In this document: positions 1 through 28,477 of the stretch, piece after piece
How the letters are laid out: each line of letters starts with the position of its first letter
How positions within the stretch are numbered: position 1 is the first letter of the stretch
IMG/VR virus record: IMGVR_UViG_3300033551_000020
Location: 1 to 37,533 of that record
Source: a virus
DNA length: 37,533 nucleotides
Strand: one strand, 5' to 3'
Program-made: the position numbers and the translations under genes
The notes under the pieces: generated by a model
Seen by the model: only the letters and a program-made list of their open reading frames with translations
Told to the model about the DNA's origin: nothing
The model's database searches: none

Positions 1-192
1 ACCCACCCACCCCCGCAGCTCCACCGGGTCCAGATCGGTGCGCAGCCATAGTTCGCCTTCACGGGGCTCCGCCGGGTCCGCCGAGAGCCCGCCGTGGTAG
101 TACAGGCTCTCGTACAGCAGGATCAGGTCAGGATCGCCCAGCCCGGTGACGGGATGCCGCGGCAGCGCCGTACGGCTTTTGCCGCGGCTCAT
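1..192 (-). CDS. Hypothetical protein, N-terminal part (runs off the left edge)
   Basis: The open frame starts at ATG 192-190 and stays open to base 1, giving 64 residues that begin MSRGKSRTALPRHP. The start overlaps the stop of the preceding 34-residue gene as ATGA, as at most junctions in this phage. The visible part is soluble, rich in Leu, Tyr and acidic residues (ILLYESLYYHGG, GELWLRTDLDP), with no membrane segment or known motif. I do not recognise it. Its place after a membrane/coiled-coil gene leaves a late structural or lysis role open, but nothing in the residues shows this. Confidence 0.6.
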   Translation of the reverse strand, partial: MSRGKSRTALPRHPVTGLGDPDLILLYESLYYHGGLSADPAEPREGELWLRTDLDPVELRGWVG

Positions 193-293
193 CCGATGAA
201 CGCGTGTTCGTCGGGCCATTCCTGCGCCCGGCAGGGCTTCCGTCGCAGCAGCACAGCGACGAGGACGCGGGACAGGCGACGCAGGTGCTTCAT
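189..293 (-). CDS. 34-residue basic small protein
   Basis: ATG at 293 overlaps the stop of the upstream gene (ATGA) and its own stop overlaps the next start (ATGA), so it sits in a coupled chain of three. A GAGG-type ribosome site lies just upstream. The peptide begins MKHLRRLSRVLVAVLLRR and then turns polar and acidic (QEWPDEHAF). The short hydrophobic stretch flanked by arginines could be a weak membrane anchor, but it is shorter than a normal transmembrane helix. Function unknown. The main evidence is the overlap at both ends. Confidence 0.5.
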   Translation of the reverse strand: MKHLRRLSRVLVAVLLRRKPCRAQEWPDEHAFIG

Positions 294-703
294 GGCCTCG
301 CCCTCACTCCCGGCGGGTCGTAGTAGGTGGGATTGGGCAGGAACTCGAAGCAGGCGGACGGGTCGCGCTCCTCCGCCATCCGCTTCAGGGCGCAGGTCTG
401 TGCGCGGTCCTCCTGCTTTTCCTCGTCCAGATGAGCGGCGAAGGCGGCCCGAAGCTGGCGCTGCTGCACCGCCAGCGTATCCTGCCGGGCCTGTAGCGCG
501 CGCTGCTGGCGGGGAAAGTCGCGGAGCGTGGCGCCGGTGGAGACGATGAAAATCATCGTCAGGCCGATGCTGGACGCCGCGCCGATCACGACCTTTCCCC
601 AGCGGGCGGCACGCTCGGCGGCGAGTAGCGTACGCTCCTCCGGAGGTAACATGGCCTCCGGCACGCGCCTGCGGCCCTCGGTCCTCGGTGTGGTTGGGCT
701 CAT
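290..703 (-). CDS. Membrane-anchored coiled-coil protein (137 aa or shorter)
   Basis: One transmembrane segment (VVIGAASSIGLTMIFIVSTG, about residues 38-57) is followed by a Gln/Arg/Ala-rich coiled coil (about 60-100) and a C-terminal tail with two cysteines and several Pro/Tyr. The layout resembles the 99-residue protein at 10374-10673: short cytoplasmic N-terminus, single span, coiled coil. Such shapes occur in phage spanin-like, holin-accessory and Rz-like proteins, but no family motif is visible, so a lysis role is only inferred. The frame begins at 703; an internal ATG at 652, with GGAGG just upstream, is an alternative start that would remove 17 residues. It ends in an ATGA overlap with the next gene. 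Confidence 0.65.
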   Translation of the reverse strand: MSPTTPRTEGRRRVPEAMLPPEERTLLAAERAARWGKVVIGAASSIGLTMIFIVSTGATLRDFPRQQRALQARQDTLAVQQRQLRAAFAAHLDEEKQEDRAQTCALKRMAEERDPSACFEFLPNPTYYDPPGVRARP

Positions 704-14361: not shown

Positions 14362-14591
14362 GCTGCTTTCTCCTTCGGCTGCTGCGGATGTATGACGAAT
14401 AGGCTCCTTCCCCTCACCTGCACCGGCTCTCTCAGCGGGACACGCTCGTGCACCTCCCCGAGCAGCGGGGCCAGCAGCCGCAGCGCTCCCGTTGTCAGGA
14501 TGACGCATCCCTGCGCTTCCAAATCCGCAAGCACCAACTCCACCGCGTGCCTACGTCTCTGCCTCTCCGGTACGTTCGCCACGTCCTCCAC
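14358..14591 (-). CDS. Hypothetical small protein (77 aa; possible longer start at 14651)
   Basis: The C-terminal part of a long open frame clearly looks coding: EDVANVPERQRRRHAVELVL, DLEAQGCVILTTGALRLLAP, HERVPLREPVQVRGRSLFVI. Two starts are possible: GTG 14591, five bases after the preceding stop but without a ribosome site, or ATG 14651 with GGAAGG in front, overlapping the previous gene by 55 bases and giving 97 residues. No domain recognised; the basic helix followed by a beta part could bind nucleic acid. The stop couples to the 29-residue gene. Confidence 0.55.
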   Translation of the reverse strand: MEDVANVPERQRRRHAVELVLADLEAQGCVILTTGALRLLAPLLGEVHERVPLREPVQVRGRSLFVIHPQQPKEKAA

Positions 14592-15128
14592 GGTGACTAC
14601 GCAGAGTCGGGAGGAGGCGTCCGCCAATTGATGGGCTCCGGCGCGTACCATTCGCCTTCCTGCTCCTCGCCCTCGTGAACCACTGCCGGCTCCGCTTCTG
14701 GCATGGCGATGAAGCCCTCCCGCTGCATGCGCATCACTTTCTCCAACGTAGTGGCGCTCGCCTCCTTCTCGGCCCGCGACAGGTCGCGCCACAAGGCCCA
14801 CAACTCCCGCTCCCTTTTCTCTGCCGACTGCAACAGCTCGCTCACGATCTTGTTCCGGCGCTGGTTCTCGCGACGCGCCCACTCCACCGACAACGTAGCC
14901 GCCAGCATCGAACCCAGCATCACCGCCACCATGATCCACTCGTCGCTCATCTTCATCCTCCATCATCTCAGGTGGAAATTCGCGTACATCCAACAGTACG
15001 TACGGCGCCAGAGTCTCTACCGCCAGACTGCCGCTGTAATGCCACACCACATCCACATGGGACACGCCTTCCGCGTCCTCGTGATGTACAATCCACGGAC
15101 GAAGCGGAAGGCTTGGACCCTGGTTCAC
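14358..15128 (-). CDS. 256-codon stop-free frame enclosing another gene (overlapping or frameshifted gene)
   Basis: The frame opens with a plausible gene: GTG 15128 overlaps the upstream TGA (GTGA), and residues 1-60 look real (WIVHHEDAEGVSHVDVVWHY, ETLAPYVLLDVREFPPE). There is then no stop for about 190 more codons. The middle is Gly/Ala/Arg-rich and lies opposite a well-formed gene (14597-14950) in the +1 frame; the last 77 residues again look coding. Either this is one protein with an overprinted linker, or the first 60 residues end by frameshift or sequence error. The +1 shadow of GC-rich genes rarely contains stops, so the open middle alone proves nothing. Confidence 0.35.
   Translation of the reverse strand: MNQGPSLPLRPWIVHHEDAEGVSHVDVVWHYSGSLAVETLAPYVLLDVREFPPEMMEDEDERRVDHGGGDAGFDAGGYVVGGVGASREPAPEQDRERAVAVGREKGAGVVGLVARPVAGREGGERHYVGESDAHAAGGLHRHARSGAGSGSRGRGAGRRMVRAGAHQLADASSRLCVVTVEDVANVPERQRRRHAVELVLADLEAQGCVILTTGALRLLAPLLGEVHERVPLREPVQVRGRSLFVIHPQQPKEKAA
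14597..14950 (-). CDS. Membrane-anchored coiled-coil protein (117 aa)
   Basis: GGAGG lies six bases before ATG 14950, so this start is preferred over ATG 14956, which would touch it. The N-terminus is one transmembrane segment (WIMVAVMLGSMLAATLSVEW). A long charged coiled coil follows (about 24-85, with KRERELWALWRDLSRAEKEA) and then an acidic, Pro-rich tail. It lies wholly inside the 14358-15128 frame but in the +1 frame. The topology fits a phage inner-membrane accessory protein such as a spanin-like or exclusion factor; nothing specific is recognised. Confidence 0.7.
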   Translation of the reverse strand: MSDEWIMVAVMLGSMLAATLSVEWARRENQRRNKIVSELLQSAEKRERELWALWRDLSRAEKEASATTLEKVMRMQREGFIAMPEAEPAVVHEGEEQEGEWYAPEPINWRTPPPDSA

Positions 15129-15565
15129 CGTCCCTGCTGTGCACCGGAGGGGGCGGGCGAGACGCACGTGAAGCCGGAGCCGTCCGGCAAGGTGTAGTCG
15201 GAGAGCAGGTCTTCGCGCTCGCCTTTCGTGGCGCGACGTAACCCGTGCTCCGATTTGGCACGGTCCAGCATGACGTGCGCGCGCCGGATCGTGCTGTGTG
15301 CAGCCTCGCTCCCCACGGGGGCGGCTGGGGTGGGCAGGCAAGACAGCACTTCGATGCACAGCGCCTGCGCCCACGTGTGGTGCGGGAACTCTTCCGTCTC
15401 GTCGGGATTGCGAGCCTCGTCCACCATCCGGCGCACCAGCGCGCGCACCGCCTTGTACATGCCGCCGGTGCCCAGCACGTCGTACCACCACGGGCTGCCG
15501 TCCCCCCACCACTTCCGCGGCTCCGTGGCGGGCGTGTCCTCTCTCACCGTCTCGTCCGTGGGCAT
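15125..15565 (-). CDS. Hypothetical protein with DETVRED leader (146 aa)
   Basis: Starts at ATG 15565. The N-terminus DETVREDTP nearly repeats that of the 264-residue protein at 24956-25750 (DETVREDAP). A Trp-rich patch (RKWWGDGSPWWYDVL) is followed by a helical region with VRALVRRMVDEARN and a His/Trp/Cys-containing helix, then STIRRAHVMLDRAKSEHGLR. It ends with a GTGA overlap. No family recognised. Confidence 0.65.
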   Translation of the reverse strand: MPTDETVREDTPATEPRKWWGDGSPWWYDVLGTGGMYKAVRALVRRMVDEARNPDETEEFPHHTWAQALCIEVLSCLPTPAAPVGSEAAHSTIRRAHVMLDRAKSEHGLRRATKGEREDLLSDYTLPDGSGFTCVSPAPSGAQQGR

Positions 15566-15601
15566 CAGCGGCCTCCATCGGGGTTGGGGGTGCGGCGAGC
15601 G

Positions 15602-16000
15602 TCATCGCTCACGCGACTCTTGCAGCGAGTCTCCCGGCGGGCCGACTGCATCGCAATCCCAGCATCCGCTTTGGTACTGTATGCTCTCGCCGGAGTCGAT
15701 GCTCGATGAGGCGTAGTCGGCCTCGACGTCCGTCCCGCCGCAGAACGGGCACGGCTCCATCGCCTCTGCGTCCTCCTCGCTGGCGCGCGTGTGCACCCCG
15801 CCGTCCGGGTGGGAGGGGGTGCCGTGGAGCGTTGCCAGCTCCCGCGCGTACTCCGTCGTGGGCTCCACGACCCCCACGTACTCGTCCACCACGTGCGCAA
15901 GCGCCTCTTCGTAGACGGCGCCGTGGTGCTTCTTCAGGTACGCGGCTACCGCCCGATGATGCAGCAGGCCGTTGCGCTCCTTCGTCTCGTTCTCAGCCAT
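15602..16000 (-). CDS. Lar-like zinc-finger protein, restriction-alleviation type (132 aa)
   Basis: Starts at ATG 16000, overlapping the preceding gene by eight bases. Residues about 81-120 hold EPCPFCGGTDVEADY and then SGCWDCDAVGP: Cys-x2-Cys ... Cys-x2-Cys in the arrangement of Lar_restr_allev-type zinc ribbons (Rac prophage Lar and relatives). The N-terminal 80 residues are helical and charged. Lar of the Rac prophage relieves EcoKI restriction; whether this relative does so is unknown, as many small phage proteins share the finger. A methyltransferase in the replication region would fit a shared anti-restriction role. Confidence 0.65.
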   Translation of the reverse strand: MAENETKERNGLLHHRAVAAYLKKHHGAVYEEALAHVVDEYVGVVEPTTEYARELATLHGTPSHPDGGVHTRASEEDAEAMEPCPFCGGTDVEADYASSSIDSGESIQYQSGCWDCDAVGPPGDSLQESRER

Positions 16001-16325
16001 GGGCGGCTCCGTCGATGAGGGCGGCGATCGCTTCCAGCGTCTCCAGGGGGAGGGCGCGCCACGATTCAGGGCGCATCCCGGCGAGCTTGGACGCGACCCG
16101 GTCGTGGGCGATCTTCTGACGCAACTCCGGCGTGGGCTCCTTGATGGTGGGGAAGCGATACCCCTTGCCGCCGACCTGCCGGCCATCTGAACGCCGAAAC
16201 TTCGTCGCGCCCACGGCGACCTGGGTCGCTGACGCCCGCGTGATGCGCTCCAGCGACAGCCCCGACCACGGCCCGGAGACGACCACCTCGTCGCCCTCCT
16301 TCAGCGTCTCCAGCCAGTCAGCCAT
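15993..16325 (-). CDS. Hypothetical protein with KOW/SH3-like start (110 aa)
   Basis: Starts at ATG 16325, overlapping the upstream gene by eight bases; the longer frame to 16505 is a shadow. The N-terminal 45 residues look like a small beta barrel (LKEGDEVVVSGPWSGLSLER, then ATQVAVGATKFRRSDGR), as in KOW/SH3-like folds. The C-terminus is helical (TPELRQKIAHDRVASKLAGM, LETLEAIAALIDG). Similar arrangements occur in phage proteins of unknown function. No catalytic residues seen. Confidence 0.6.
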   Translation of the reverse strand: MADWLETLKEGDEVVVSGPWSGLSLERITRASATQVAVGATKFRRSDGRQVGGKGYRFPTIKEPTPELRQKIAHDRVASKLAGMRPESWRALPLETLEAIAALIDGAAHG

Positions 16326-16566
16326 GATCGGCCTCCGTGGTGATGGGCCATGGCAGCGCGCACTCGGGCTGCCCAGCCAAGAGGCGGGCCACGTCGTCCG
16401 TCGGGTTGATCCGTCCGTGACGCGACCGTTCGAGAGAGGTGGGCAGCCAGGTCCCATCCCAGCACTCCGGCAGGTGATCCCACGCCCACACGGTGCCGTC
16501 TGCATCTACCGTGAGGAAGCGGGTCCACTCGGGCACGCCGCACTCCTTCGTATCGATCTCGCTCAT
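16318..16566 (-). CDS. Hypothetical small protein with MSEID leader (82 aa)
   Basis: ATG 16566 has GGAG seven bases upstream, within the stop region of the preceding gene. The first residues MSEID and the DNA around the start (TGACGATGAGCGAGAT) are shared with the gene at 26255-26437. The body has WTRFLTVDADGTVWAWDHLP, CWDGTWLP and a Pro/Trp end. It is Trp/Asp-rich, soluble, with no known motif. Confidence 0.6.
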   Translation of the reverse strand: MSEIDTKECGVPEWTRFLTVDADGTVWAWDHLPECWDGTWLPTSLERSRHGRINPTDDVARLLAGQPECALPWPITTEADHG

Positions 16567-16568
16567 CG

Positions 16569-16892
16569 TCAGTCTCCGGTCAGGGTGCGGGCGCGGAGGA
16601 TCAGCGCGTCGAGGCGGGCGCCTAACTCATCGCTGTCAACGTCGCGGTCGTCGGTCTCCAGCCACTCGCCCACCGTGGGCAGCGCCGCCAGCTCCTCCAC
16701 CAGCGCCCGCAGGTCCGGCTGTTCGCGTAGGGCGGCGGCGGCGCGGCGGTAGCGGGTGGCAGAGAGCTCCAGCATCCCGCGCATCGAGGAGGCCGGGAGT
16801 TTGCCGGCTTCCTCGCGATCCAGCGCGGACATCCCCTCGAACCATTCCACCGCTTTGTCCTGCACCCGCTCCTCCGTTGTCGTCTCGCTCAT
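16569..16892 (-). CDS. Hypothetical helical protein (107 aa)
   Basis: Two ATGs are in frame (16898, 16892). The second is chosen because AGG lies seven bases before it and because the context ATGACGATGAGCGAG recurs at two other genes with start at the second ATG. The protein is all-helical and acidic (VQDKAVEWFEGMSALDREEA, ATRYRRAAAALREQPDLRAL, DSDELGARLDALILRARTL). No membrane segment or motif; function unknown. Confidence 0.6.
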   Translation of the reverse strand: MSETTTEERVQDKAVEWFEGMSALDREEAGKLPASSMRGMLELSATRYRRAAAALREQPDLRALVEELAALPTVGEWLETDDRDVDSDELGARLDALILRARTLTGD

Positions 16893-16913
16893 CGTCATGC
16901 CTGAAGGTGGGGG

Positions 16914-17141
16914 TCAGGCGAGGGGGCGAAGGTGCTCGCGGAGTAGATCCCACTCGCGTCCGGCTCGCGACCCCGAGAGAAGCAGGACCGTCACCCCGTT
17001 CGATCCTCGCCAGCCTTCCGGGGTCCAGACGAGTTCGCCGGAATCGTGGACCACCACGCATTCGGAGCCGTTCAGCGTGGAGTTCGCGTATCCGGCCGTG
17101 GCCTCCACGACCATCAAGCCGCCTATCGCCTGTTTGCTCAT
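16914..17141 (-). CDS. Hypothetical small protein (75 aa)
   Basis: First gene behind the second copy of the repeated promoter. Start ATG 17141 (MSKQAIGGLMVVEATAG) is preferred because the longer frame would begin in the promoter; AGGG lies upstream. It is beta-rich with a short C-terminal helix (RAGREWDLLREHLRPLA). No known motif. Its promoter and leader match those of the zinc-ribbon gene at 13653-13940, so the two are probably co-regulated. Confidence 0.6.
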   Translation of the reverse strand: MSKQAIGGLMVVEATAGYANSTLNGSECVVVHDSGELVWTPEGWRGSNGVTVLLLSGSRAGREWDLLREHLRPLA

Positions 17142-17162
17142 CTCCGTCTGCCCTGTGGCTGG

Positions 17163-17216
17163 TGGGTTGGTTGACTTCACTGCACCTAAGCTAGCTTATG
17201 CTGGATGCGAAGTCAA
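17163..17216 (-). promoter_or_regulatory. Repeated minus-strand promoter with dyad, copy 2
   Basis: -35 TTGACT (17216-17211), a 17-base spacer and -10 TAGCTT (17193-17188). The -10 lies in the palindrome AAGCTAGCTT (17188-17197). Compared with copy 1 the two inner bases changed on both sides (T to C and A to G), which keeps the palindrome. The -35 overlaps the terminase stop codon (TTGA). It should drive the small-gene cassette from 17141 leftward. Confidence 0.65.
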
Positions 17217-19996
17217 GGGTCTTGTTCAATCCGCTCCGCAAGCCGCTCCCGGTGTTCACGGACCCGGCGCTCCCGCGCCGTCTCGCCACGCCTCTCCTGC
17301 GTCACCAGCTCCGGGGGTGCCACACGCGCAAGGGTCGCGTAGCGTTCACCGTCCAGCATGTGCATACCTCCAGCCGTGTTCTTGTCCGGACCCGGCGTGT
17401 GCGCCTCATAGGGCTTGGGCTTCTTCCAGCGCAGATTCTTCATCTCCCATAGCAGGCGCGATCCAGCCATGAATTCGCCCTCGTCACTGGCGTCCGCCCC
17501 CGGCCGCAGGTGCACCCATTCGCTGTACAGGTTGTCAAAGATGTACCAGCGCGGCTCGCCCACGGGGCTAGGATCGTCCCGGTGCACCTGCGGCGGCGGC
17601 TCTCTGCGTGTGCTGGGGGCCAACAGGTTTTGCAGCATGCGAATGCCCGCGTCCACCGCCTTTAGCTTCTGGTCGAGCTGCGCGAAGATGAGCCGGGCGC
17701 CGATCTCCGCCGCAGCGGCGTTCAGCTCAATGCTATCTTGGAGCGCGGCGGTGTCGATGTAAATGGTGAGCGTGGCGTCCCGGTCCTCGTTGAGCCACGG
17801 TAGCACGGGGGGATAGAACCGGCTCCGGGTCTTGCCCTCCTCGTCGGTGCTCTCCACCGTACGGCCCCTGGTGAGATCGCGCCACACCGCGGACACCCGC
17901 TGCTCCGCTGTCTCCCCGCTGCCGCTGAAATACTCGTACACGGTGTACACGCGCCCCGTCTCGTCCATCGCCTTGATGACAAGGGCGAAGTAGTACGCCG
18001 AATCGCAACCACCCCACACCTCGTAGTACTGCGGCACCTTGAAGGCAGGGATGACGTGCACCGCCGGGTCGAAGTCCGCATACACGCCCCCGGTGCGGCG
18101 CTTGTAGATGCCGAAGACGCGTACCATCCGCTCCGCCGGGTCTTTGTAGCGGCGGGCGAAGCGGAGTACCTTCTCGCGGTCCATGTGGGGCACTTTAATG
18201 CGACCCACCCCCATGCTGGCCCGATCCCGCTTCTCCAGTGCTTCGTCGTACTCCGCCAGCCCGCCTTCGATCACGTACACGTCCGGGTTGTCGCCCCCCT
18301 TGTTGCCGGCGGGCAGGTACAACCCCTCCTCCATCCAGCCCAGCCCGTTGACCGGCGTGACGGTGATGTAAATCTGCCCGCCCGTGGTCGCCACGCGGGC
18401 GGCGGCCTCGTTGAAGTGCTCCTCCGGCACCGGCTCGTCCAGGTGGATGTGCCCCACCGCGTCACCCGTCCAACTCGTTGCGGCCTGCTCGTACGACACG
18501 AACCAGATCCGGCAGACGCCGCCGTCCACCCGCCGGATCGTGGCGCACTTGTGCTGCTCGCTCCAGTGCACCAGCAGGCGAGGGGGAACGAGAGAGAGGA
18601 AGATCTTCCGCGTCACCTTCTCATAGAAGGGGAAATCGGGGAAGCCAGACCACAGCGTCTCGATGAGCGGCACCCGCTTGTACGGGTGCACCCCGTGGGC
18701 TCGCCAGATGTTGTCAATATGTGCGATTGTCGTGTTGTGGGTAACAATGCAGTTCTCCACAACATAGGTACGCTCCGGGTGCGCCACCTCTATGCAGACC
18801 TGCTCGGTTTCTCCGGCGGGATCGATGCGAACCAAGATGCGTTCTTTGGTAACGCAAGGGTTTCTCTGGCGCGCCAACTTGCGGGAAAGCCTGAATAAAG
18901 GCACGTCGTGGACGCGTATGTTGACGCGGTACGACTCCCGTCCCAGCCGTTTTTCTCCTTTGTACGTGTACGATGTTCTGCGTACTCCCATAACCGCAGT
19001 ACCACCCAACGACTGAGCCAGGAAAACAACCGCATCAGCCAGACACTTTGATGTAGAACTAAACTCAATCTGCCCATTCTTTAGCGCCGATCCATCCGTG
19101 TCCATCAGTCCTTGCAAGAGCGCAAGTCGCTGAGGGGCGTCGTTGTACAAATAGCAGTCGGGGACGTGTTTCTCCCATGACCGCTTGCCCATCAACCCCA
19201 GCCCCCGCAGGGACGCAGTCAACGGGTTTGAACGAACGAAGTCCCCCTTCGCGTTGCGCGCATACGGGGCCGGTATACTCCAGTCGCAGTTTGTTCCTTT
19301 GACTTTTTGCAAACTGACGCCATCAGGAAGCAACCTGCGCACCTCTTCCAACAATTCATCATCAACGCTGGAAAGCCTAACCGCATCTTTGCTGATCCCA
19401 CCGTCGCCCAACAGCACGCCCATCAGATACGGGTCTACCGGCACGTCGCAAGCGGGCAAGCGCACAGCCCCTACGGCGGGTATGCTGAACCTCTGAGGCG
19501 GCTTGGGCCGCATGCCGCCGGGGCTACTCAGAATGTCACGCAGCGAGTACACACCCCATTGCATGTAGCGCCGACCAAAGCTCTGCTTGCCAGTGGCGTT
19601 CGGGTTGGCTTTGACAAAGCGAGCCTGCGGGTCTTTGGCCTTCCACAAATGGTCCAAGCCGCAACGGGTAGAGGCGCCATCGTTGAAAGTAAGCCGGTAC
19701 ACCGGCTTCACACCTTGGGGATAGACCCCTACCACAGGAGTAGGCGTGCCATCTCCAGCTATCACCAAGTCACCCACGCACAACTCTCCCATCTCACGCC
19801 ATCCGCTCGGCGTGAGTACGGGAGTGTCTACCGGCATCTCCTTCCCGTACCGATTTGAGGCGATATTCAGGACAACGGGGTAGTCCGCAATGCAGTATTC
19901 TTCCTGTCCCTCGTGGGGGGTAAACGGAAACTCGGCGGGACGCAGCAAATCCCGCCGAGGAGCCCACGGAGATACCAGATCGTCAATCGCGCTCAC
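17213..19996 (-). CDS. terL: Terminase large subunit with in-frame intein (927-aa precursor)
   Basis: Packaging motor of the phage; the spliced protein would have 558 residues. Residues 1-52 and 422-927 are terminase. The P-loop SNRYGK/TT is split by the intein. Walker B is HIHLDEP with downstream ITVTPVNGLGW. The C-terminal nuclease has acidic residues in WGGCDSAYYFALVIKAMD, TIYIDTAALQD and GPDKNTAGGMHMLDGERY, as in RNase-H-type terminase nucleases. Start GTG 19996. It stands directly upstream of the small-gene cassette and then portal; no clear small subunit is beside it. Its stop overlaps the next promoter. Confidence 0.9.
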   Translation of the reverse strand: MSAIDDLVSPWAPRRDLLRPAEFPFTPHEGQEEYCIADYPVVLNIASNRYGKEMPVDTPVLTPSGWREMGELCVGDLVIAGDGTPTPVVGVYPQGVKPVYRLTFNDGASTRCGLDHLWKAKDPQARFVKANPNATGKQSFGRRYMQWGVYSLRDILSSPGGMRPKPPQRFSIPAVGAVRLPACDVPVDPYLMGVLLGDGGISKDAVRLSSVDDELLEEVRRLLPDGVSLQKVKGTNCDWSIPAPYARNAKGDFVRSNPLTASLRGLGLMGKRSWEKHVPDCYLYNDAPQRLALLQGLMDTDGSALKNGQIEFSSTSKCLADAVVFLAQSLGGTAVMGVRRTSYTYKGEKRLGRESYRVNIRVHDVPLFRLSRKLARQRNPCVTKERILVRIDPAGETEQVCIEVAHPERTYVVENCIVTHNTTIAHIDNIWRAHGVHPYKRVPLIETLWSGFPDFPFYEKVTRKIFLSLVPPRLLVHWSEQHKCATIRRVDGGVCRIWFVSYEQAATSWTGDAVGHIHLDEPVPEEHFNEAAARVATTGGQIYITVTPVNGLGWMEEGLYLPAGNKGGDNPDVYVIEGGLAEYDEALEKRDRASMGVGRIKVPHMDREKVLRFARRYKDPAERMVRVFGIYKRRTGGVYADFDPAVHVIPAFKVPQYYEVWGGCDSAYYFALVIKAMDETGRVYTVYEYFSGSGETAEQRVSAVWRDLTRGRTVESTDEEGKTRSRFYPPVLPWLNEDRDATLTIYIDTAALQDSIELNAAAAEIGARLIFAQLDQKLKAVDAGIRMLQNLLAPSTRREPPPQVHRDDPSPVGEPRWYIFDNLYSEWVHLRPGADASDEGEFMAGSRLLWEMKNLRWKKPKPYEAHTPGPDKNTAGGMHMLDGERYATLARVAPPELVTQERRGETARERRVREHRERLAERIEQDP
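18734..19840 (-). other. Class 3-like intein with LAGLIDADG endonuclease, inserted in the terminase P-loop
   Basis: Residues 53-421 of the precursor. The first residue is Glu, not Cys/Ser/Ala, followed by MPVDTPVLTPSGW and VGDLVIAGDG (block A). Block B reads DHLW with Trp118. The F-block Cys is Cys401 (VCIEVAHPERTY). The end is IVTHN with Thr419, His420, Asn421, then Thr422 as first C-extein residue. Trp, Cys and Thr at these places form the WCT set of class 3 inteins. Two DOD endonuclease motifs are present (LMGVLLGDGG at 191-200, LLQGLMDTDG at 293-302). The base composition looks less GC-rich than the flanks, in keeping with transfer. Confidence 0.85.
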
Positions 19997-20032
19997 GGAT
20001 TACTGCTTGGATTGAATGGGGGGGGGATTGTT

Positions 20033-20194
20033 CTAAAGGAGGCGGTTGCGTTCATGCGGCGGTACGATCCCGTACCTGCGCCACTTTCGTCGCTCCGCTG
20101 TCCGCTCCACGACGTGCAGCGCCACGGTGAGCAGCAGCGCCGGGGTGCAGAGCCCCAGCAAGACGACGATCCAATCCCATAGAGTCGTGTTCAT
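20033..20194 (-). CDS. 53-residue single-span membrane protein
   Basis: ATG 20194 overlaps the upstream TGA (ATGA) and GGAAGAG precedes it. The N-terminal half is one transmembrane helix (WDWIVVLLGLCTPALLLTVA). The rest is strongly basic (ERTAERRKWRRYG), giving an N-out/C-in orientation. It stands just upstream of the terminase with a gap of about 36 bp. A membrane-associated phage accessory protein; no family. Confidence 0.6.
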   Translation of the reverse strand: MNTTLWDWIVVLLGLCTPALLLTVALHVVERTAERRKWRRYGIVPPHERNRLL

Positions 20195-20493
20195 GGCTCT
20201 TCCGCGATAGCCGGTTGTGTCGGGTTCTCCGAATGGTGACGGCAGCCCTGATGCTCAAAGGTAAGCAGGCCGGCGCGGTGGGACACAGGGTTCATACATA
20301 CGCCCCAATCAGAACTGCCGCGCAACTCCGCGAACCAGATGCATCCCGTGGAGCAATCGCTACCCCACTTTCCGTTGCCCTCCCGGTCGTCCCTGCCGTA
20401 CGGCTGGTAGTCTTCAGGCAGATCCTTCACAACACGCTTCGCCGCGATGTGTGTGACCCGCGCCGCCATGGGCATTTGTGATTCATCCAGCAT
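20191..20493 (-). CDS. DUF3027-like protein (100 aa)
   Basis: Residues about 40-85 hold SDCSTGCIWFAELRG, DWGVCMNPVSHRAG and LTFEHQGC. This Cys/Trp-rich signature (CSxGCxWF, DWGVCxNPxSxRxGLLTFEHQGC) is one I associate with DUF3027-type proteins of unknown function, widespread in GC-rich bacteria. Four cysteines and histidines suggest metal binding. Start ATG 20493 has GGAGGTGAGCG upstream; the stop overlaps the next start. Identification is from memory of the motif. Confidence 0.65.
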   Translation of the reverse strand: MLDESQMPMAARVTHIAAKRVVKDLPEDYQPYGRDDREGNGKWGSDCSTGCIWFAELRGSSDWGVCMNPVSHRAGLLTFEHQGCRHHSENPTQPAIAEEP

Positions 20494-20496
20494 CGC

Positions 20497-20628
20497 TCAC
20501 CTCCATCCGATGTGCAGGTGGGTCGCGACCCAGATCAGGCCGCCCACGATCGCCGCCCCACCGACGAGGGCGAACACGAGCACCGCGTAGATGACTCGCA
20601 TCCGGGGCATAAAGTCGTAGTCACCCAT
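20497..20628 (-). CDS. 43-residue single-span membrane protein
   Basis: ATG 20628 has an ideal ribosome site (GGAGGTGAGCG) and overlaps the end of the upstream gene by eight bases. The peptide is a short charged N-terminus (MGDYDFMPRMRV) and one long hydrophobic Gly/Ala/Val helix (VLVFALVGGAAIVGGLIWVA), ending HLHIGWR. The following gene starts four bases later behind the same GGAGGTGAGCG sequence. Confidence 0.6.
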   Translation of the reverse strand: MGDYDFMPRMRVIYAVLVFALVGGAAIVGGLIWVATHLHIGWR

Positions 20629-20998
20629 CGCTCACCTCCATGAGGTCGGACAGGTCGATCCCCTGCCAGGCGCAGTAGCAGCGGGCGATGGCTTCCTCAT
20701 CCGAAGACCCCTCTGCGACGTACACGCCCTCCGGCGTGTAGGCTGAGAAGATCCCCGGCGTGAGGGCGTACGTCCCGCCGCCGGCTCGCATCTCTTCCAC
20801 CAGTTCGCACACGTCGCACCAGTCCTGCGGCCAGCGGGGGACGACCGTGGGGCCCTCGTCGGCGTGCAGAGTCCCCGTCAATCCAGTCGTCGGACCACCC
20901 CAGCTCCACGGCGGGCTGCGCTGCAAGTCCGTGTAGCCCTTGCGCACCGCGATCCGCCGTTGGATCTCCAGCAGCACCTCGTCCCTCGTCATCTGCAT
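20621..20998 (-). CDS. Phage ABA-sandwich-like protein (125 aa)
   Basis: Starts at ATG 20998 or 20992 (MTRDEVLLEIQRR; AAGGA is nine bases before the second). The order is N-terminal helix, a Pro/Trp-rich segment, WPQDWCDVCELVEEMRAGGG, two beta strands (TYALTPGIFSAYTPEGVYVA), then DEEAIARCYCAWQGIDL. This resembles the small phage proteins with the so-called ABA sandwich domain, whose function is unknown. The longer frame to 21163 overlaps the HD gene and is not coding. Confidence 0.55.
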   Translation of the reverse strand: MQMTRDEVLLEIQRRIAVRKGYTDLQRSPPWSWGGPTTGLTGTLHADEGPTVVPRWPQDWCDVCELVEEMRAGGGTYALTPGIFSAYTPEGVYVAEGSSDEEAIARCYCAWQGIDLSDLMEVSDG

Positions 20999-21651
20999 CC
21001 GTCCTTTCCCAGCAGGCGGCGCACGGCGATAACGAATCGATCCCACCGCGTGGTCTGCCACGTAAGCTCGCGATACCGGCGCAAGAAGCGGCGCTTGGCC
21101 TTCGCGTGGCTCCACGGACGGCGCACGAACAGGTGCGAGTAGGGGGCATGGCTCAGACTCCATCCCTTGACGCGTCCGGGGCCATCCTGCGGCATAAGGT
21201 CGCGCGCCTCCGTCGCCAACATGCGCTCATCGGCGGTGACGACGCAGGCGGGCATCTTGTAGCGGCCCAGTTTGGACCGATCACCAAGCCCGAATCGGTC
21301 CTCCACGCAATCCATCAACTGCGCCTCCATCTCCGCGTACCCCGCCAGCGATGCTCTGGCCGGACGGGGCACATCCACCAGATACGCCTCGCTGGCGTCG
21401 TGCAGCAGGCCGTCCAGCGCGTACCTGCCGCAGCACTCGTACGACACGTGCACGCAGTGCTCAGCCACGGAGTAGTGACGACGAACATGGCCCCCGAACC
21501 TGCATTGTAGAGAGAGCGCGTGCGCGATGTCTTCGATGTCGAAGTCCCCGGAGCGGGGATCAGCGGGATAATACCTGCGTCCGCTGCTGGTGCACCCCCA
21601 ATCACCTACTCGCTCGCGCTCCTCGGTATGAGCATCCGCCTTGGCCGTCAC
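20989..21651 (-). CDS. HD-domain phosphohydrolase, YfbR-like (220 aa)
   Basis: HD motifs are clear: HYSVAEHCVHVSYEC (first His region), GLLHDASEAYLVDVPRP (His-Asp pair and following Asp) and a later Asp region. This matches phage and bacterial HD hydrolases of the 5'-deoxynucleotidase/YfbR type that act on nucleoside monophosphates in a metal-dependent way. A role in adjusting nucleotide pools during infection is usual for such phage enzymes, but the substrate is not shown here. Starts at GTG 21651 overlapping the repressor stop (GTGA). The C-terminus is very basic (HAKAKRRFLRRYRE). Confidence 0.8.
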   Translation of the reverse strand: MTAKADAHTEERERVGDWGCTSSGRRYYPADPRSGDFDIEDIAHALSLQCRFGGHVRRHYSVAEHCVHVSYECCGRYALDGLLHDASEAYLVDVPRPARASLAGYAEMEAQLMDCVEDRFGLGDRSKLGRYKMPACVVTADERMLATEARDLMPQDGPGRVKGWSLSHAPYSHLFVRRPWSHAKAKRRFLRRYRELTWQTTRWDRFVIAVRRLLGKDGCR

Positions 21652-21878
21652 GGCACCGGCTTCCCGCTCACCACGTAGTCCAGCCCCAGCCCCATGGCGC
21701 CACAGATGCGCTTCAGCGTCCCCACCTTGACGCTCTCGATGGGACGCTTTCCCTTCTCGATGGAGCAGAGGTGCGTCACCGACATGTCGGCCGCCTCCGC
21801 CAACTCATCCTGCTTCATCCCCCGTAGCGCCCGCGCCGCCTTGATGCGGTTGCCGGGGGTGGACGTCTCGCTTGCCAT
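21648..21878 (-). CDS. XRE-family repressor-like regulator (76 aa)
   Basis: Residues about 8-65 form a Cro/cI-type helix-turn-helix: GNRIKAARALRGMKQDELAE, ADMSVTHLCSIEKGKRPIES, then TLKRICGAMGLGLDYVV. No dimerisation or protease domain, so it is a minimal DNA-binding regulator. Start ATG 21878 is chosen because the longer frame covers the promoter and an operator-like repeat. It is divergent from the lipoprotein gene and leads the HD gene (GTGA overlap). A role in lysogeny or control of the accessory region is likely; the target is unknown. Confidence 0.85.
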   Translation of the reverse strand: MASETSTPGNRIKAARALRGMKQDELAEAADMSVTHLCSIEKGKRPIESVKVGTLKRICGAMGLGLDYVVSGKPVP

Positions 21879-21899
21879 TTTTATCTTCTCTCCCTCGCT

Positions 21900-21953
21900 G
21901 ATGATACAAAATGTCATCCCAACTAAATGTAGTGCGCGGACGCAAGAAGTCAA
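21900..21953 (-). promoter_or_regulatory. Promoter and operator of the XRE gene
   Basis: -35 TTGACT (21953-21948) and TACATT (21931-21926, 16-base spacer), followed by an imperfect inverted repeat with GATGA (21900-21904) and TCATC (21914-21918) around the start point. The -35 and its TTGACTTC extension match the promoters at 14.0, 17.2 and 33.4 kb. The repeat is a candidate site for autoregulation. Confidence 0.55.
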
Positions 21954-22018
21954 CAGGGATGAAGCCGTATCCACGTCTCACGTAGCACACCGCCGGAACC
22001 CTTGCAACCGTCACTCTC

Positions 22019-22047
22019 TTGCCCATCATCAACCACCATCCTATCTT
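22019..22047 (+). promoter_or_regulatory. Promoter of the lipoprotein gene
   Basis: TTGCCC (22019-22024), a 17-base spacer and TATCTT (22042-22047) on the plus strand, about 60 bp before the lipoprotein start. It is divergent from the XRE promoter within the same 229-bp gap. Confidence 0.45.
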
Positions 22048-22107
22048 GTGGGCCGTCTCTTGTTTTAGCCACGGACTTGCATCTCTCGCCACAAAAGGAG
22101 CAACAGA

Positions 22108-22335
22108 ATGAAGTACACGCGCATCAACTTCGGGATCGCAGCCTGCGTCGCCGCCTTCTCGCTGGCAGCCTGCAACGACACCCCCACGCACGCCCGCGGC
22201 TGCTCGTCTCCGGACACCTGCGACGCCAGCGCGAACGGCGTTCTCGGCGGAGGCGGCGGACGTACCGACACCATCCCGCAGCCCTCCAGCATGGGCGACT
22301 CCACCGGCGTGCTCGGGGGCGGCGGAGGGCACTGA
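22108..22335 (+). CDS. Small secreted lipoprotein with duplicated GVLGGGGG motif (75 aa)
   Basis: Residues 1-22 form a lipoprotein signal peptide: MKYTRINFG, a hydrophobic stretch, and lipobox SLAAC with Cys22. The mature part is short and soluble: two further cysteines (GCSSPDTC), then NGVLGGGGGRTD and, at the very end, TGVLGGGGGH, separated by a Pro/Ser linker. Start ATG 22108 has AAGGAG seven bases upstream, and the gene has its own promoter and a strong terminator. Independent expression on the opposite strand is typical of a prophage moron, for example superinfection exclusion; a signalling propeptide is another possibility. Confidence 0.75.
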   Translation: MKYTRINFGIAACVAAFSLAACNDTPTHARGCSSPDTCDASANGVLGGGGGRTDTIPQPSSMGDSTGVLGGGGGH

Positions 22336-22355
22336 GCCTAGATCGGGGTCCGGTA

Positions 22356-22394
22356 AAATCCAGAGGGGCGGCAAGGCGCCGCCCCTCTGGATTT
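22356..22394. terminator. Bidirectional terminator between convergent genes
   Basis: A perfect 17-bp stem, 22356-22372 with 22378-22394 (AAATCCAGAGGGGCGGC and complement), and a 5-base loop. It follows the plus-strand lipoprotein gene by 20 bp and touches the stop of the minus-strand gene ending at 22393. Leftward it runs into TTTTACC. Confidence 0.8.
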
Positions 22395-22599
22395 ACTCGC
22401 CTTCGTAATTAGCAAGAGCGGCGCGCACCTGCGCCATCCGCTCGCGAAGGTCAGCCACCTCTTGCGCGAGCGCTAAGACCAAGTTGTCACCGATACAGTC
22501 CCTCCACGGCACGCCGTGACGCTCCGCCCGCACCGATCCATCCACTCGCTGCTCCACAGCATATTCGCCCACCACCACGCGCAACCTCGCTTCTCCCAT
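22393..22599 (-). CDS. Hypothetical small protein with C-terminal coiled coil (68 aa)
   Basis: Start ATG 22599 lies behind AGAGGAGTAGGAGAA; the longer frame is a shadow of the Cys-rich gene. N-terminal beta strand (ARLRVVVGEYAVEQRVDGSV), then HGVPWRDC and a helix (VLALAQEVADLRERMAQVRA). Last gene before the bidirectional terminator. Function unknown. Confidence 0.6.
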   Translation of the reverse strand: MGEARLRVVVGEYAVEQRVDGSVRAERHGVPWRDCIGDNLVLALAQEVADLRERMAQVRAALANYEGE

Positions 22600-22604
22600 T
22601 TCTC

Positions 22605-22790
22605 CTACTCCTCTTGTTCTGGTGGATTGTCCGCGTAACGCACCCACGCGCAGCCGCCCTCGCATGTATCCCCGTGGTAGCACTCCAAGCAGTCCCCACA
22701 CTCATCGCAGAAATCCTTGCCACACTCCGGGTCACCCTCAGCGTCGCGCACCCACTTCCCGGTATCGCGATCATAGATGTGGCAGATCAT
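22605..22790 (-). CDS. Cys-rich zinc-binding mini-protein (61 aa)
   Basis: Eight cysteines and one histidine in 61 residues: ECGKDFCDECGDCLECYHGD then TCEGGCAWVRY. The Cys-x2-Cys spacings suggest two zinc sites or a cross-brace. AGGTGA lies before ATG 22790. It overlaps the end of the TPR gene by 20 bases, and its own end carries the ribosome site of the next gene. A nucleic-acid or protein-binding role is possible; no family named. Confidence 0.65.
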   Translation of the reverse strand: MICHIYDRDTGKWVRDAEGDPECGKDFCDECGDCLECYHGDTCEGGCAWVRYADNPPEQEE

Positions 22791-23625
22791 CTGTCACCTG
22801 TTCCTCCAGTTGATTGTCCAGCGTCAACCCGTGAACCTGCACCACGCCCAGCCGCACCATGATCTCGTCGGCACGGTCTTGCACGATGGGCTCACGGCGC
22901 CGTGACGCGATGTGCCGCGCGCTAGCCGCGTAGTCCATCGCCTCACCACGGCGCCCCATCATCTCCGCGCCGCGGGCCACGTCAAGCATCTGTAGCGCCA
23001 CCCCCTCCTCCGCACCCGCCAGCTTGTCCACCGCATAGTCGAAGCGGCGCCGCGACGCCTCGTACCAGCGCTCGTGCTGGAGCGTACCGGCCGCGAACGC
23101 CTGCGAGGCGAACAGCACCATGCGCTCGAACGGGTTCTGCGCGTAGAAGGCCGCCTGCGCCGCAGTCTGGTAGAGAAAGCGCGCATCCGTCTCACGCCGC
23201 AGCAGGCGCAGATAGGACAAGTCCTGCACGAAGGCGAACAGGCCAGAGGGGGAGTCCCGCCAAATGTCCATCCGCACCACCGCATGCGGCGAGGCGGTTC
23301 CCTTGTCGTTGAGCTGCATGGCCTCCACGAAGCAATCATGGTGCGCCGGTCCCAGCCATTCCGCCAGCCGGTTGCTCTCCGCCTCCCGCAGCGCGCTGCG
23401 GTAGGCCATGTACGCCTCCTCGTGCTCGGCGCGGTAGCGGTGCATGCGACCCACGCACGCGCGACTCTGGTACATGGTTTCCCCGTCCCCCACCGCGTTT
23501 GCCAGATCGTACGCCTTCTGCGCCATCTTGCGGCACAGGCCCACGTCCGCGATGGAGCGCGCCATCCGCGCATGCTTCAGCGTCCGCCGCGCCTCCTCGA
23601 ACTGCTCCGGAACCTCCTGGATCAT
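22771..23625 (-). CDS. TPR-like helical repeat protein (284 aa)
   Basis: All-helical, with TPR-like repeats (CRKMAQKAYDLANAVGDGET, YRAEHEEAYMAYRSALREAE, RRGEAMDYAASARHIASRRR). No HTH, membrane span or signal peptide. Start ATG 23625 is chosen for GAGGA six to seven bases upstream; the longer frame begins inside the promoter. It has its own promoter at 23693-23721. TPR proteins act as scaffolds or, in the RRNPP family, as peptide receptors. A partner role with the nearby XRE regulator and lipoprotein is inference from neighbourhood only. Confidence 0.7.
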   Translation of the reverse strand: MIQEVPEQFEEARRTLKHARMARSIADVGLCRKMAQKAYDLANAVGDGETMYQSRACVGRMHRYRAEHEEAYMAYRSALREAESNRLAEWLGPAHHDCFVEAMQLNDKGTASPHAVVRMDIWRDSPSGLFAFVQDLSYLRLLRRETDARFLYQTAAQAAFYAQNPFERMVLFASQAFAAGTLQHERWYEASRRRFDYAVDKLAGAEEGVALQMLDVARGAEMMGRRGEAMDYAASARHIASRRREPIVQDRADEIMVRLGVVQVHGLTLDNQLEEQVTDDLPHL

Positions 23626-27131: not shown

Positions 27132-28421
27132 TCAGTCCCGCCCCACCATCTGCCACGGTCCCACGTACGACGCCTCGGAATGGCCCAGCACGGTGATGGC
27201 GTAGGGCTGACCCACCGGCAGGCCCAGCGCTTCCCGCCACACTTGCCAGAGATGCGACAGGAAAAGCTTCTCCGTCTTGCGCAGCGCCGTCAGGTGCTTG
27301 CGCCCGTCCGCCCAGCCCACGCGCTCGCGGTCCAGCTTCGCCCGCTCGGCGCGGTACACCTGCTCGTACTTGCCCCGCGGCACCTTCAGGAAGCCAGTGC
27401 CTACCAGATACATCTGCTTCTTCACGTAGGCGTCGTAGGTGGACTTCTGCCCGCGCGCCGGCTTGGGCTGGGCCGCACGCACACCGTCCTCCGGGCCGGC
27501 CACCTTCACCAGGGCGCCGGTGCACGAGGCGGTGCTTCCGAGCGCCTGATGCTTGCCGGTCACGTTGTAGCCCACCGGCCAGTCGCGCGTCATACCGCAG
27601 GCGGCGCAGGCGTAGCGCTCGCCGGGCACCGTGGCGAGGCCCGCGTACGCCCAAAACGCGGACGCCGTGGTCGCCTTCCTCGGGTCCAGCCGCGCCAGCA
27701 GCTTGCACGCGAGCGTAGGCCCGATCCCCTTCACCTGCGACAGCCACGGCCAGCAAACGTGTTCTTTCAGCGCACGCTCCATCTCCTTGCGAAGCTCCTG
27801 CTCCTCGGACCACGCGCGGTGGTACATGCGGCCCAAGATCGGCACCGGCCCGCTCTCCTCGCCGCTGGCGATGGCGCCCAGCATCTCCTCCACTCCCGCG
27901 ATCTCTTCCGTCCCCTCACCCCACGTCTCGTCACGGCCCTGAAGCACAGCGCGAATCTGCTCGCCGCACCCGATCCGCTTCCGCTGCGCCTGCTCATAGC
28001 CGTCCGCGAGGAATCGCAGCATGCGGTCGTTCTCGGACTGCGGGGGCGCCTCGGGGGCGGAGGACGGGAAAGAATCCAGATCAAACTCGCCACGGGCCGT
28101 CCTTTCCTCCATCTCCATGGCAAGACCCGCAACAAAAGCAGAATGCCTACTCTGCGGATACTGGCTCCACGTCCGCAGTTCCTCCAGCCCCTTCTTGCCG
28201 AATCCGCGAATCAGCAGCAGCGCTTCGTCCGACAGTCGCGCAGCCGCGCCGGGTGTGGCAAAGCCTTCGCTGCGCAGCGCATTGGACGTACGCGCCGACA
28301 GATCGGCCCAATCCTCGTCCCTCCCGGCCACGGCGGCTCCGTGGCGCGACGAGAAGAACGTCACGTCCGTACGCTCCCCGCTTGCCAGCTCCTTCAGCGC
28401 TTCCCTCTCGATGGTGCTCAT
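27132..28421 (-). CDS. RNA-polymerase-alpha-CTD-like plus IS110-type HhH protein (429 aa)
   Basis: Residues about 37-85 resemble the RpoA C-terminal domain: DLSARTSNALRSEGFATPGA, then LLLIRGFGKKGLEELRTW (helix-hairpin-helix). Residues about 226-265 contain a second HhH, LSQVKGIGPTLACKLLARLD, followed by AFWAYAGLATVPGERY, the pattern of the Transposase_20 C-terminal domain of IS110/IS116 transposases, and CAAC (272-275). The DEDD/RuvC-like catalytic domain of IS110 is not seen. DNA binding at junctions or at promoters is therefore more likely than transposition. Start ATG 28421 is chosen because a promoter covers the longer frame. Confidence 0.7.
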   Translation of the reverse strand: MSTIEREALKELASGERTDVTFFSSRHGAAVAGRDEDWADLSARTSNALRSEGFATPGAAARLSDEALLLIRGFGKKGLEELRTWSQYPQSRHSAFVAGLAMEMEERTARGEFDLDSFPSSAPEAPPQSENDRMLRFLADGYEQAQRKRIGCGEQIRAVLQGRDETWGEGTEEIAGVEEMLGAIASGEESGPVPILGRMYHRAWSEEQELRKEMERALKEHVCWPWLSQVKGIGPTLACKLLARLDPRKATTASAFWAYAGLATVPGERYACAACGMTRDWPVGYNVTGKHQALGSTASCTGALVKVAGPEDGVRAAQPKPARGQKSTYDAYVKKQMYLVGTGFLKVPRGKYEQVYRAERAKLDRERVGWADGRKHLTALRKTEKLFLSHLWQVWREALGLPVGQPYAITVLGHSEASYVGPWQMVGRD

Positions 28422-28447
28422 CTTCGGTTTCCTTGCTTCCGGTTGGT

Positions 28448-28477
28448 AGTATACAAATTGCACTGCGACATAACCAA
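28448..28477 (-). promoter_or_regulatory. Promoter of the alpha-CTD/HhH gene
   Basis: On the minus strand TTGGTT (28477-28472), an 18-base spacer and a good -10 TATACT (28453-28448), in the short gap between the sliding-clamp stop and the start at 28421. Confidence 0.55.

Follow-up and report, generated by a model that had tools for sequence, protein, structure and literature searches.

A very probable class 3 intein in a predicted phage large terminase, with intein-bearing and intein-free sister alleles

A class 3 LAGLIDADG intein very probably interrupts the P-loop of the predicted large terminase subunit encoded in the window, which is the term used here for the entire 37,533-nucleotide stretch of viral DNA that was analyzed (IMG/VR record IMGVR_UViG_3300033551_000020). 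The intein itself is ordinary in kind. Its type is well known and widespread, this insertion site included, and the window contributes a further member to a large group already known. The new part, and the only unusual aspect, is its set of sister alleles: terminases that are otherwise nearly the same occur in two phages with the intein and in one without it. With this natural allele set, class 3 splicing and homing could be tested on a precursor, a product and a target DNA that match one another, and the set might also be a snapshot of intein spread in a wild phage population.

The intein occupies positions 18734..19840 on the minus strand and is 369 aa long (Glu1 through His368-Asn369), with a HINT splicing domain that is split by a LAGLIDADG endonuclease domain. 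It corresponds to precursor aa 53-421, ends in His-Asn and is followed directly by Thr, and the two junctions read ...NIASNRYGK / EMPVDTPVL...CIVTHN / TTIAHI... (N-extein / intein / C-extein). An earlier note on this DNA had placed an intein here, and its coordinates prove exact to the base. That note also proposed looking for terminases in which this insertion point is empty, and such an allele (L002) was found in a near-identical sister phage, contig G001. The empty allele reads NIASNRYGKTTIAHI, and its 506-aa C-extein is identical to that of the window. Compared base by base with G001, the window is longer here by exactly 1107 bp; the additional bases lie between AAG and ACG and can be placed nowhere else. 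Because this alignment cannot be slid, Glu must be the residue at position 1 (19838..19840, minus strand), Asn must be residue 369, and the +1 residue must be the Walker A Thr (18731..18733, minus strand), which is the first C-extein residue and the presumed second branch point. Thus, the empty allele bears out both the proposed Glu in place of an N-terminal nucleophile and the proposed insertion between the GK and TT of Walker A, which falls between the Walker A Lys and Thr (YGK/TT). Shifted boundaries, such as one that would place Met at position 1, are ruled out by the same allele. The GC content of the intein (57%) and its third-position GC content (66%) are both lower than those of the C-extein (85% at third positions). 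This is as expected for a newcomer, although the short N-extein is low as well.

The gene that carries the intein spans 17213..19996 on the minus strand and encodes a 927-aa precursor, which would be reduced to 558 aa by the predicted splicing event. Its N-extein (19841..19996, minus strand) is 52 aa long and has the Walker A sequence ...ASNRYGK at its end, and its C-extein occupies 17213..18733 on the same strand. When the precursor was compared with Pfam and NCBIfam profiles, solely intein and endonuclease-type models were returned and no terminase model, and the window terminase matches no Pfam family at an E value below 0.01. The assignment as a terminase comes from the intein-free allele, which has a modest PHROGs profile match (E 4e-13) to PHROG 2, the family of the terminase large subunit, and aligns to annotated terminases from four phages (DS1, PaP3, Brad and Shocker), in which the GK[ST] motif contains the insertion point. 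The window terminase also matches PHROG 31467, and among the other phage genes of the window are ones for a portal protein, a major head protein and a DnaB-like helicase. On sequence grounds, the host is a tailed-phage large terminase whose P-loop is interrupted by the intein. The possibility of a second intein in the precursor was rejected, as the intein-free sister protein can be aligned from end to end with the spliced protein of the window without a gap.

Class 3 inteins are defined by a Trp at B:12, a Cys at F:4 and a Thr at G:5, and an N-terminal nucleophile is not required (PMC5222942; PMC3196547). The window intein was aligned with 81 other IMG/VR inteins and seven from reference phages (n=89). 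Within this alignment, the block B His (B:10, intein H64, 19649..19651) is conserved in every sequence (89/89), as are the class 3 nucleophile Cys (F:4, intein C349, 18794..18796) and the signature Thr (G:5, intein T367, 18740..18742), whereas the signature Trp (B:12, intein W66, 19643..19645) is Trp in 85/89 and Phe in 4/89; all four codons lie on the minus strand. The earlier note had numbered the signature residues Trp118, Cys401 and Thr419 in the precursor. These numbers are correct, and comparison with the solved class 3 DnaB inteins and the 88 viral homologues puts all three residues at the right block positions. As grounds for refutation, the note had named a precise alignment that would place a Cys or Ser at position 1. 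That alignment was run and gave Glu instead, which leaves the class 3 claim standing.

Overall, the element has no Ser, Thr or Cys at position 1 (Glu1) and combines W66, C349, T367, Asn369 and Thr+1 with a HINT fold, as class 3 inteins do; in this class the +1 residue is Ser or Thr, and rarely Cys. A PDB sequence search with the splicing domain likewise identified class 3 DnaB inteins (6bs8 and 6rix/6riy) as the best natural matches; the top row of that search, 6riz, is gp41-1 engineered to bear the class 3 motif (PMC7664689). Glu1 is uncommon, yet not unique, among the 89 inteins, whose first residue is Ala in 57 cases, Ser in 13, Glu in six and Cys in none, with one contig cut off there. The +1 residue is Thr in 78, Ser in nine and Cys in two of the same sequences.

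Two further patterns emerge from the alignment. Ser at position 1 accompanies the class 3 Trp, Cys F:4 and Thr G:5 in 13/89 related inteins (L022, L052, L056, L059, L080, L082, L083, L084, L088, L096, L098, L105 and L107), and thus a potential position-1 nucleophile can coexist with the class 3 set. In another four inteins (L051, L063, L092 and L099), Phe replaces the B:12 Trp while Cys F:4 and Thr G:5 are kept.

By analogy with the intein family, splicing would begin with an attack by Cys F:4 (Cys349, precursor Cys401) on the Lys-Glu peptide bond, giving the branched thioester typical of class 3 inteins. Transfer of the acyl group to Thr+1 would follow, and cyclization of Asn369 would release the intein. 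Joining of the exteins as ...RYGKTT... would be expected to restore the Walker A motif. In the unspliced precursor the P-loop, and with it the ATPase site, is split, and therefore the terminase should be inactive until the intein is removed, in which case packaging would be held up until then, as the earlier note proposed.

The endonuclease domain is intact. LAGLIDADG motif 1 (block C, YLMGVLLGDGG, intein 138-148, 19397..19429) contains Asp146, which is Asp in 84/89 sequences, and motif 2 (block E, LALLQGLMDTDGS, intein 239-251, 19088..19126) contains Asp249, which is Asp in 88/89; both motifs are read from the minus strand. The proposal that both DOD motifs retain their acidic residues is therefore borne out by D146 and D249, and each active-site Asp is present in the window intein. 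The precursor also matches the Pfam family LAGLIDADG_3 with an E value of 5e-12. An AlphaFold2 model of the intein, built with 64 aligned sequences, has a pLDDT of 94.9. Its best whole-length matches are PI-SceI entries (Z 27, aligned over 1..369, 3.5 A over 338 residues), and among lone splicing-domain structures the class 3 intein 6bs8 comes closest, at Z 19.4 and 1.5 A over 124 residues. Because homologous inteins occur in 772 GenBank phage records, at identities of up to about 40%, and because the predicted fold matches PI-SceI at Z 27 and a class 3 intein at Z 19, the identification as an intein is far beyond chance.

Further copies of the terminase or the intein were sought in IMG/VR by peptide search, and the search with the C-extein yielded only two close relatives, G001 and G002, both from sample 3300028809. 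The G002 intein (L003/L004) equals that of the window at all 1107 bases. The C-exteins of the two phages differ at 7.4% of sites, and at this divergence about 82 differences would be expected in the intein, as opposed to the 0 that were observed. The occurrence of sister phages with and without the intein in one sample suggests recent intein movement between relatives.

The window as a whole is a mosaic, in which exact tracts match one or the other of these contigs, as judged by comparison with L012-L019. A tract of 3216 bp that includes the whole intein (18693..21908; rc 15626-18841, with the intein at rc 17694-18800) is identical to intein-bearing G002; this identity begins 2.1 kb upstream and runs on for 41 bp beyond the intein. 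A tract of 4170 bp that starts at the 3' end of the intein (14564..18733; rc 18801-22970) is identical to intein-free G001. The switch from one to the other lies in a 41-bp interval just past the intein (18693..18733), and the diagnostic sites are all G002-like between about rc 15.8 kb and the intein and all G001-like thereafter to 21.4 kb. Around the insertion site, G001 and G002 agree for 38 bp on the left and 41 bp on the right, and therefore the target is likely intact in the intein-free phage. About 6 kb of the window is close to neither contig (rc 10340-12592, 14250-15600 and 27622-29700), which implies either that a third strain may have contributed or that the contig may be composite. 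One further gene, at 27132-28463 on the minus strand of the window, encodes a 443-aa protein with a helix-hairpin-helix or RNAP alpha-CTD-like part; it has a weak IS110-type Transposase_20 match and also matches PHROG 4285 'transposase' (E 8e-40).

Tentatively, the window can be read as the record of a very recent natural homing event, with donor-type, recipient-type and recombinant alleles preserved in three closely related contigs, a reading that falls somewhat short of probable. During co-infection, the endonuclease would cut the intein-free terminase gene at its uninterrupted P-loop sequence, and repair from the intein-bearing phage would copy in the intein together with flanking DNA. The window would then represent a G001-like recipient to which a G002-like donor gave the intein and about 2.1 kb of upstream DNA. 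If so, and this too is held only tentatively, the co-conversion tract would be one-sided, with about 2.1 kb upstream of the site and at most 41 bp downstream. Such a combination of a long upstream and a very short downstream flank is permitted but not predicted by homing. The earlier note's suggestion that homing may still be active gains some indirect support from the mosaic among the sister phages. Phage nuclease genes have been described at the boundaries of genetic exchange (PMC10448857).

The evidence base for the mosaic is three metagenomic contigs, and the junction might instead be an assembly chimera of co-occurring G002-like and G001-like strains, in which case the intein would be just as described and no homing would have been recorded. 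This explanation is rather unlikely. Strain mixtures readily give rise to chimeric contigs, a single sample was the source of both G001 and G002, every identity tract is exact, and precisely 41 bp are common to the two contigs at the junction. However, an overlap of 41 bp is short for a wrong crossing by an assembler, and the window segments that are close to neither contig show that the window is no plain splice of G001 and G002. Furthermore, these two contigs share exact runs of 2.4 kb and 2.7 kb on a divergent background, as expected for phages that truly recombine.

It is similarly doubtful that the intein was gained through ordinary homologous recombination without the participation of its endonuclease, which may be inactive. 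The switch at the intein site is not unique, being one of about 13 identity switches in the window, and about a dozen other exchange boundaries lie away from any intein. Switches of this kind would also arise through general recombination or mis-assembly. Against this explanation stand the intact endonuclease with both Asp residues and the position of the boundary, since the chance that one of some 13 random breakpoints would fall within 41 bp of the insertion site is about 3%.

Several known systems resemble the window intein in part. The TerL1-a inteins of mycobacteriophages occupy a P-loop site between the invariant Walker A Lys and Thr of the large terminase (PMC5050341, Kelley et al. 2016). 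They share the host protein and the Lys/Thr site with the window intein, whereas the phage lineages differ; this comparison covers host and site. For mycobacteriophage terminase inteins other than TerL1-a, splicing has been shown, and two of these cut intein-free alleles (PMC5050341). The class 3 DnaB inteins of Mycobacterium (6bs8 from M. smegmatis and 6rix/6riy from M. chimaera) share the HINT fold and the Trp-Cys-Thr set, but they are mini-inteins without an endonuclease that reside in helicases, whereas the window intein has a LAGLIDADG domain and resides in a terminase. PI-SceI, the yeast VMA1 intein, has the same two-domain HINT and LAGLIDADG layout but is a eukaryotic class 1 intein (Cys1) of 454 aa, with 18% identity. 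That the window element itself belongs to class 1, or has decayed and lost the ability to splice, is very improbable: a Cys at F:4 is also found in some class 1 inteins and one class 3 homologue, from Arthrobacter, is a pseudogene (PMC3196547), but the empty allele sets Glu at position 1, all catalytic residues are in place, the Arthrobacter pseudogene lacks His B:10 and Cys F:4 (PMC3196547), and the host gene is intact and its product probably essential.

In addition to the GenBank records, at least 593 IMG/VR stretches carry homologous inteins. Outside the sister phages, the highest identity (47%) is to the intein of L032 (IMG/VR 3300038621_000007). This intein has the class 3 signature and a P-loop GK/T site behind the similar motif IAANRCGK, and its C-extein matches PHROG 31467, but it begins with Ala and about half of its residues differ. 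In a quick tree limited to relatives of the window intein, the window intein grouped with inteins of mostly terminase exteins, with moderate support (SH-aLRT 94). One terminase intein of the same group (L049, 2501-3805) lies a few residues upstream of the usual site (AANQ/CGKT) and has Cys at +1. In addition, the terminase of phage ctRVW222 (L031, 1039-2910) carries an apparent class 1 mini-intein (CFHGDTEVIT...VHN/C) in its C-terminal nuclease part.
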